Of a stretch of 64,000 nt of DNA, positions 44,907 through 47,519 are shown one piece after another. Position 1 is the first letter of the stretch. Every line of letters begins with the position of its first letter. Both the position numbers and the translations under genes were made by a program. The stretch comes from Alphaproteobacteria bacterium (lineage in GTDB: Bacteria; Pseudomonadota; Alphaproteobacteria; Rhizobiales; Rhizobiaceae): the NCBI GenBank assembly GCA_016861165.1, contig BOKV01000008.1, forward strand, positions 62,001 through 126,000. Direction: 5' to 3'. The notes beneath the pieces are model-generated. The model was not told the origin of the DNA, made no database searches, and saw only the letters and a list, made by a program, of their open reading frames with translations.

Positions 44907-45683
44907 TCAGGCCAGGACCTCCAGCGCGCGGGCGTGGATGGCGCCGTTGGCGGCCGCGACGATCCGCCCGCCGTCGACCGCGCAGGCGCCTTCCCAGGTG
45001 GTGACGACGCCGCCGGCCTGTTCGATGAGCGGAATGAGCGGGGCGATGTCGTAGGATTTGAGGTCGCATTCGACCACCAGGTCGACATGGCCGGCCGCCA
45101 GCATGGCATAGGCATAGCAGTCGAAGCCGTAGCGGGCGAGCCGCACCTGCTCCTCGAGCCGGCGATAGCGCGCCAGATCGTCGCCGGCAAACAGCGCCGG
45201 CGTCGTCGTCATCAGCTTGGCCTGCGCCAGCGCGGCGACCGGGCTGGTGGAAAGCCGCGTGCGGCTCTGCCGGCGGCAGTGGAAGCTGCCGGCGCCGTCG
45301 GCGATGAACAGTTCGTCGGTGTAGGGCTGGTGCATGAGCCCGGCCACCGGCACGCCGTTGCGGGTGAGCCCGATGAGCGTGCCCCAGCTCGGCAGCCCGC
45401 AGATGAAGGCGCGCGTGCCGTCGACCGGATCGATGTGCCAGCAATATTCGGCGTCGGGGTTGGTCGCCGCCTCCTCCTCGCCGAGGATGCCGTGGTCGGG
45501 ATAGCGCTCGCCGATCAGGGCGCGGATCGCCTTTTCGGCGGCCCGGTCGGCCTCGGTGACCGGATCGAAGCCGCTTTCGAGCTTGTTGTCGACCGCCAGG
45601 CGCATGCGGAAGCGCGGCAGCGTCTCGCGCGCCGCCGCGTCACACAGCTCGCGCATGAAGGCTTCGATGTCACCTGGCAGCAT
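44907..45683 (-). CDS. hisN: Inositol-monophosphatase-family, probable histidinol-phosphatase
   Basis: DPVTEADRAAEKAIRALIGERYPDHGILGEEEA...WHIDPVDGTRAFICGLPSWGTLIGL...; IMPase metal motifs. Upstream in-frame start 45737 possible. Confidence 0.88.
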   Translation of the reverse strand: MLPGDIEAFMRELCDAAARETLPRFRMRLAVDNKLESGFDPVTEADRAAEKAIRALIGERYPDHGILGEEEAATNPDAEYCWHIDPVDGTRAFICGLPSWGTLIGLTRNGVPVAGLMHQPYTDELFIADGAGSFHCRRQSRTRLSTSPVAALAQAKLMTTTPALFAGDDLARYRRLEEQVRLARYGFDCYAYAMLAAGHVDLVVECDLKSYDIAPLIPLIEQAGGVVTTWEGACAVDGGRIVAAANGAIHARALEVLA

Positions 45684-45722
45684 CGCGTTCCCGATGTCTC
45701 GTTGGCGGTCCGAAATCGACGC

Positions 45723-45750
45723 TTGACTTTTTTGCAATGCAAAATAATTT
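45723..45750 (+). promoter_or_regulatory. Sigma-70-like promoter of the candidate sRNA
   Basis: TTGACT-N16-TAATTT on the plus strand, in an unusually AT-rich stretch. Confidence 0.6.
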
Positions 45751-45756
45751 GTGCAT

Positions 45757-45835
45757 TGCGATATGCGAATATCGCTGCCCTCCTAGGGCGTTTCCTCCCA
45801 GACTTCGGCCGCACTGCCAAGTGCGGTCTTTTTTT
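45757..45835 (+). ncRNA. Candidate trans-acting sRNA (~79 nt), MmgR/alpha-r8-like
   Basis: Promoter plus hairpin gcgatat-gcga-atatcgc, hairpin ccct-cct-aggg, single-stranded gUUUCCUCCCAgac, and terminator ccgcact-gcca-agtgcggTCTTTTTTT; no plus-strand CDS explains the terminator. Confidence 0.7.
45809..45835 (+). terminator. Rho-independent terminator of the sRNA
   Basis: CCGCACT GCCA AGTGCGG TCTTTTTTT. Confidence 0.85.
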
Positions 45836-45855
45836 GCCGCCCGGGTGCGACGGCG

Positions 45856-46743
45856 CTATTCGGCGGCCAGCGGCTGGCTGCCGGCAAGGCCCGCATCCGG
45901 TATCGACACCAGGCGCTGGACGAATCGGGCGATATCGGCGGCGAGCCGGGCGAAATGGTCGTTCCGTTCGAGCGTCGTCTCGTCCATGTACAGGCCGCGG
46001 TTGATTTCGATCTGGATGGCGTGGACGCCGTTGTCCGGTCGGCCGTAATGCTCGGTTATGAAGCCGCCGGCATAGGGCTTGTTGATCTCGACGGCATAGC
46101 CGAGATCGGTCAGGAATTCGCTGGCGGCCCAGGTGATCTGCGGGGCGCAGCTGGTGGCATAGCGATCGCCGAGCACGAAGTCCGGCCGGCCGCGGGTGCC
46201 CTGGCGGGCCGACGGCATCGAATGGCAATCGACCAGGACGGCAAAGCCGAAGGTGACGTGAGTGGCGGCCAGCAGGCGGCGCAGCGCCGCGTGATAGGGG
46301 CGGTAGAGCGCCTCGATGCGGTCGAAGGCCTCGGCCACCTGCAGTTTGGCCCCGTAGATGTCCTCGGTCTCCGAGACGATGCGCGCGATGGTGCCCAGTC
46401 CGCCGGCAACCCGCATGGAGCGCGCGTTGACGAAGGGCGGCAGCGGGCCGTCGAACATCTTGGGATCGAGTTCGTAGGGCTCGCGGTTGACGTCGAGATA
46501 GGCGCGCGGGAAGTTGGCCGCCAACAGCGGTGCCCCGCAGGGGACCGCGCAGGCGAACAGTTCGTCGACCAGGAAGTCCTCCGACTTGCGGATCGCCTGG
46601 CGACTCAGCCGCGAAGCGGCAAGGAAGTCCGCCGGATAGGTCCGGCCGCTGTGGGGGGAATCGAACACGAACGGCACCCGCTGCTCGGCCGGCTGCAGCA
46701 GGGTGAGGGGGCGGTCCCGCAAGGCCTCGTCGGTGGTCGTCAT
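45856..46743 (-). CDS. N-formylglutamate amidohydrolase family
   Basis: VPFVFDSPHSGRTYPADFLAASRL ... AVLVDCHSMPS ... GRPDNGVHAIQIEINRGLYMDE. Confidence 0.92.
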   Translation of the reverse strand: MTTTDEALRDRPLTLLQPAEQRVPFVFDSPHSGRTYPADFLAASRLSRQAIRKSEDFLVDELFACAVPCGAPLLAANFPRAYLDVNREPYELDPKMFDGPLPPFVNARSMRVAGGLGTIARIVSETEDIYGAKLQVAEAFDRIEALYRPYHAALRRLLAATHVTFGFAVLVDCHSMPSARQGTRGRPDFVLGDRYATSCAPQITWAASEFLTDLGYAVEINKPYAGGFITEHYGRPDNGVHAIQIEINRGLYMDETTLERNDHFARLAADIARFVQRLVSIPDAGLAGSQPLAAE

Positions 46744-46945
46744 CGCCTTCCGAAAGAATTGCCGGTGCCAGCCGGCGAGGCCGGCACCGGGTGGGATTGC
46801 GTTCAATCTGGCAGCTTGCGGAGCGGCTGTCCATTGCCGCCACGAAGGCGCCTTCACTTCGTGTTTACCCTGTTCATGGCTTAGATTAACTTGCGAATCG
46901 CGGCGGGGACGGCGGTCTCCGGTTGGGCACCGAGTTCGACGGGTC

Positions 46946-47308
46946 ATGAAGAAAATCCTGCTTGCCGAAGACGACAACGACATGCGCCGGTTCCTCGAAA
47001 AGGCGCTGATCAAGGCCGGCTATTCGGTGGTGGCGTTCGACAACGGGGCGAGCGCCTACGACCGGCTGCGCGAGGAGCCGTTCTCGCTGCTGCTGACCGA
47101 CATCGTCATGCCGGAGATGGACGGCATCGAGCTGGCCCGCCGCGCCACCGAGATCGACCCGGACCTCAAGGTGATGTTCATCACCGGCTTTGCCGCGGTG
47201 GCGCTCAACCCGGATTCGAATGCGCCGAAGGACGCCAAGGTCCTGTCGAAGCCGTTCCACCTGCGCGACCTCGTCAACGAGGTCGAGAAGATGCTGGCCG
47301 CCGCCTGA
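46946..47308 (+). CDS. cpdR: Single-domain response regulator CpdR
   Basis: MKKILLAEDDNDMRRFLEKALIKAGYSVVAFDNGASAYDRLREEPFSLLLTDIVMPEMDGIELARRATEIDPDLKVMFITGFAAVALNPDSNAPKDAKVLSKPFHLRDLVNEVEKMLAAA: matches the rhizobial CpdR1 pattern. Confidence 0.95.
   Translation: MKKILLAEDDNDMRRFLEKALIKAGYSVVAFDNGASAYDRLREEPFSLLLTDIVMPEMDGIELARRATEIDPDLKVMFITGFAAVALNPDSNAPKDAKVLSKPFHLRDLVNEVEKMLAAA

Positions 47309-47444: not shown

Positions 47445-47519
<75 letters not shown>

Follow-up and report, generated by a model that had tools for sequence, protein, structure and literature searches.

A single-copy MmgR/alpha-r8 small RNA gene with a putative double PhaR operator in a Rhizobiales (Hyphomicrobiales) bacterium

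The MmgR/alpha-r8 RNAs are a known alphaproteobacterial small RNA (sRNA) family that has been tied to carbon storage and nutrient uptake. In published accounts, MmgR (SmelC689) of Sinorhizobium meliloti is described as an RNA of ~77 nt with three stem-loops and an anti-Shine-Dalgarno motif (PMC7143759, PMC8401924, PMC12542648), as Hfq dependent and activated by NtrC, and as limiting polyhydroxybutyrate (PHB) and phasin levels via its core region (PMC8401924, PMC7143759). The S. meliloti regulator PhaR (AniA), which is titrated by PHB granules, binds the mmgR promoter in electrophoretic mobility shift assays (EMSA) and represses mmgR; binding depends on a palindrome and is lost on its mutation (PMC12542648). 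At its core, the PhaR motif of S. meliloti reads YGCRNYGCR, and the PhaR site in the mmgR promoter lies between the -35 and -10 elements (PMC12542648). In Caulobacter crescentus, the alpha-r8 RNA SisA carries the core UUUCCUCCC and a terminator, lies downstream of an N-formylglutamate amidohydrolase (FGase) gene, a linkage described for alpha-r8 RNAs, and base-pairs through its core with mRNAs as well as with a sponge RNA, CrfA (PMC12559287). The four Caulobacter siblings SisA to SisD share no promoter motif (PMC12559287), and PhaR control is therefore not universal in the family.

An RNA gene resembling both MmgR and SisA was found on the plus strand of the window, the whole 64,000-nucleotide stretch of DNA analyzed here. 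It occupies a short intergenic gap (45684 to 45855) between two minus-strand genes, with the following features.

44907 to 45683, minus strand: histidinol-phosphatase HisN (inositol monophosphatase family), divergent, upstream of the sRNA gene (PF00459, 4.6e-48; TIGR02067, 299.9 bits against a cut-off of 275)
45723 to 45728, plus strand: -35 element TTGACT, read from the sequence, with conserved TTG-N8-GCRNYGC spacing
45733 to 45741, plus strand: first PhaR/AniA-type site TGCAATGCA, a YGCRNYGCR match between -35 and -10
45745 to 45750, plus strand: likely -10 element TAATTT, weak and of uncertain register, read from the sequence after a 16-bp spacer
45752 to 45760, plus strand: second PhaR/AniA-type site TGCATTGCG, a YGCRNYGCR match overlapping the likely transcription start
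45757 to 45835, plus strand: MmgR/alpha-r8 family sRNA, from its RF00519 match and fold, with a predicted start within 45757 to 45760
45758 to 45775, plus strand: 5' hairpin GCGATAT-gcga-ATATCGC, from the fold
45776 to 45790, plus strand: short second hairpin GCCCT-cct-AGGGC (CCCT/AGGG), from the fold and within the RF00519 consensus
45790 to 45799, plus strand: anti-Shine-Dalgarno core GTTTCCTCCC, unpaired in the centroid fold and aligned to the RF00519 core
45807 to 45835, plus strand: intrinsic terminator with a 9-bp stem and seven T, from a terminator search
45856 to 46743, minus strand: FGase family protein, convergent, downstream of the sRNA gene (PF05013, 5.7e-75, at 45859 to 46743)

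A sequence-only reading of this DNA had identified the locus as MmgR (alpha-r8)-like, proposed a search with the Rfam model, and pointed out that such genes adjoin an N-formylglutamate amidohydrolase gene. The search bears out the identity: RF00519 (suhB in Rfam, equivalent to mmgR) matches 45770 to 45843 with 55.6 bits against a gathering score of 41 and over its full length (model positions 1 to 77 of 77), whereas all other families in an Rfam search of the locus stay well short of their cut-offs. It is the only RF00519 match in the host assembly (3.49 Mb; 88% complete), and Rfam alone picks out the gene automatically. The covariance model match is accompanied by the unpaired core, the Rho-independent terminator, the adjacent FGase gene, and, in sequence, a PhaR/AniA site in the promoter. 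On all sequence evidence this is a real sRNA gene whose expression is predicted, and it is clearly another copy of the described MmgR/alpha-r8 family, not a different kind of RNA, and of low novelty. We consider it highly probable that the locus is this bacterium's single MmgR/alpha-r8 gene, with a mechanism of the S. meliloti and Caulobacter type.

The FGase neighbor is indeed present, and among 40 relatives selected by the RNA alone it lies beside the RNA in 38 and the phosphatase in 34. The FGase protein did not reach the cut-off set for the HutG deformylase equivalog. The Rfam name suhB is probably explained by the inositol monophosphatase family HisN neighbor. A gene for a CpdR-type cell-cycle response regulator (46943 to 47305; NCBIfam NF046022, over its cut-off) stands beside the FGase gene and is followed by tRNA-Val(gac) (47445 to 47519). 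Two plus-strand open reading frames that run across the sRNA (45737 to 46048 and 44934 to 46004) have no Pfam family match and were taken as chance frames.

Across 61 genomes, comprising the host's own and 60 relatives, RF00519 matched with an E value of at most 0.001 in 52 and above the cut-off in 41. Within the genus (n = 5), three genomes score above the cut-off, one gives weak hits only, and one, which is 97% complete, has no RF00519 match. The sequence-only reading had staked its proposal on close relatives conserving the core and the terminator, and the three same-genus genomes L031, L032, and L033 do retain both, together with the neighbors. Subthreshold hits in genomes of the same genus or family (L042 to L045) come without the core and the neighbors and were excluded from the counts.

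The predicted RNA is ~77 to 79 nt long; the interval 45757 to 45835 gives exactly the ~79 nt estimated earlier. An 81-nt stretch folds at -33.8 kcal/mol, compared with -20.8 kcal/mol (standard deviation, 2.7) for shuffled sequences (z = -4.8). Because the RF00519 model starts within the 5' hairpin, in its 3' arm, it omits a hairpin that the sRNA here possesses. Despite lying outside the model, a hairpin with other arm sequences is present in most homologues; the region ahead of the second hairpin reaches a folding energy of -5 kcal/mol or below in 102 of 111, with differing arms, in a count made without a shuffle control. In the window, the 5' arm of the hairpin shares bases with the second PhaR site, so that the sequences of operator and hairpin are mutually constrained.

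The CU-rich core GUUUCCUCCC sits exposed between the short hairpin and the intrinsic terminator, and the anti-Shine-Dalgarno-type seed proposed earlier proved to be unpaired in the centroid fold and aligned to the RF00519 core. Compared with the 10-nt core of the family, UUUCCUCCCU, which follows a weak hairpin, the core here, UUUCCUCCCA, is identical at 9 of 10 positions. After the core comes an A (CCCAGAC) in place of the U of the RF00519 consensus (CCCUAGAC), and this A is common to three same-genus relatives. The terminator consists of a stem at 45807 to 45828 and seven T at 45829 to 45835, against a mean of 0.3 terminators in shuffled versions of the region; read on the minus strand, the stem has no T tract after it. 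The earlier remark that no coding sequence explains the terminator holds, since it is oriented along the plus strand, both neighbors are on the minus strand, and there is no plus-strand gene that needs it.

The elements listed from sequence inspection (TTGACT-N16-TAATTT, the two hairpins, the GUUUCCUCCCAGAC stretch, and the terminator) are all located where they had been placed. The -10 hexamer TAATTT shares only 3 of its 6 positions with TATAAT, and because of this weak -10 a consensus promoter scan of the locus did not report the sRNA promoter. In place of that scan, the promoter is upheld by the spacing TTG-N8-GCRNYGC, which recurs at one distance in 86 of 111 homologues (shuffle mean, 1.07). 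What the sequence-only reading overlooked is, by motif match, a PhaR-type double operator overlapping the sRNA promoter. The second site follows the first by 19 bp, and together they form an inverted repeat at 45733 to 45760, GCAATGCA-N10-TGCATTGC, each half of which matches YGCRNYGCR exactly. In its strict form, TTGACNNTTNTGCRNYGC, the promoter occurs once in the whole assembly, at the sRNA.

The same arrangement recurs among the 111 distinct homologous genes, a set that leans to the FGase neighborhood, many loci having been found via the FGase protein, and in the choice of which promoter sequence played no part. At least one YGCRNYGCR was present in 96 of these promoters (80 bases examined; shuffle mean, 12.3) and two GCRNYGC motifs 19 to 22 bp apart in 52 (shuffle mean, 0.26), counts that do not fully correct for shared ancestry; a reversed control pattern was not enriched in the same promoters. 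When upstream regions at least 70% alike were removed, 65 of the remaining 79 had a site (shuffle, 8.6), 56 had the fixed spacing, and 32 had pairs. About half of the homologues have two such sites, and many loci of Rhizobium and Mesorhizobium have one. Five loci (L006, L008, L041, L090, and L093) contain two alpha-r8 genes each, some without a PhaR-type site, which suggests siblings under different control.

Weak subthreshold hits without synteny, such as those in L042 to L045, could be taken to mean that the sRNA belongs to the AbcR/alpha-r15 group, whose members are partly homologous to RF00519 (PMC7143759) and likewise have CU-rich anti-Shine-Dalgarno loops. Membership in that group is extremely unlikely in view of the full-length RF00519 match far over the cut-off, and it is largely refuted by length, core, and neighborhood: S. 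meliloti AbcR1/2 are 114 to 120 nt long with two CU-rich loops and lie beside lsrB (PMC7143759), whereas the RNA here is ~79 nt long with one core and lies between HisN and FGase genes. The shortness of the intergenic region would also suit a 5' or 3' untranslated region or a terminator of a neighboring gene in place of an independent RNA. We judge this very unlikely, as the neighbors are on the opposite strand, the RNA is enclosed by its own conserved promoter and terminator, and its S. meliloti and Caulobacter homologues are independent Hfq-associated RNAs.

With the MmgR/alpha-r8 assignment retained, it might still be that the promoter dyad serves a regulator other than PhaR, since the putative sites are matches to a motif and each is, by eye, one position off the PhaR-type 12-mer TGCRNYGCASMA from Bradyrhizobium (PMC6201568). 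We regard another regulator as improbable, because both sites match YGCRNYGCR exactly, the orthologous S. meliloti site is bound by PhaR in a mutation-sensitive manner (PMC12542648), and the host's own phasin genes bear the same sites. The host genome encodes PhaR (G000:C2), Hfq, phasins, and class I PHB synthases, and exact TGCRNYGCASMA sites occur in pairs ahead of two phasin genes (C26:31298 and 31325; C17:72064 and 72085), from which it follows that the same operator marks PHB genes in this organism. Further exact PhaR-type sites in the host genome (G000:C9:58591-58605, G000:C29:16889-16903, and similar), some of them overlapping on both strands, mark other candidate PhaR targets.

In the proposed circuit, free PhaR would occupy the operator and repress sRNA transcription when little PHB is stored, and PHB accumulation would titrate PhaR off the operator so that the ~77- to 79-nt RNA is transcribed. 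Together with Hfq, the unpaired UUUCCUCCC core would then base-pair to mRNAs at their purine-rich Shine-Dalgarno regions and block ribosome binding, so that functions in uptake and storage would be translated less. Among the candidate targets are components of TRAP and sugar transport whose start codons carry perfect complements of the core. This PHB-PhaR-MmgR-Hfq scheme most likely applies here, with transcription, PhaR binding, Hfq binding, and target repression carried over by analogy from S. meliloti and Caulobacter.

The host target search used one exact pattern, GGGAGGAAA, which occurs in eight start-codon regions before proteins of at least 90 amino acids. Three of the eight genes encode DctP, DctM, and a periplasmic sugar-binding protein, which is in keeping with a predicted control of uptake; as GGGAGGAAA is also a plain strong Shine-Dalgarno sequence, the list proves nothing. 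With the start regions of the host phasin genes the core paired no better than with shuffled sequences. Direct phasin control is thus unsupported here, and control of phasins may be indirect.

The locus differs from Caulobacter, with its four siblings, unrelated promoters, and sponge RNA, in having one copy with a PhaR-type operator, and from S. meliloti mmgR, for which the published table gives one PhaR site, in having two sites 19 bp apart. The doubled operator is a modest addition to the published work found. We give even chances to the idea that a double PhaR operator astride the -10 element and the start, with sites 19 to 22 bp apart, is the usual mmgR arrangement outside the Rhizobiaceae and that the single S. 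meliloti site is reduced.

The carbon-storage sRNA MmgR is now known in one more Rhizobiales genome, and knowledge of the MmgR/alpha-r8 family itself is unchanged. In relatives the PhaR operator demonstrated in S. meliloti is kept, frequently in doubled form, and the PHB-PhaR-MmgR link can thereby be tested in further species. If the double operator is indeed the usual arrangement, PHB-titrated control of MmgR would be a general Rhizobiales circuit.
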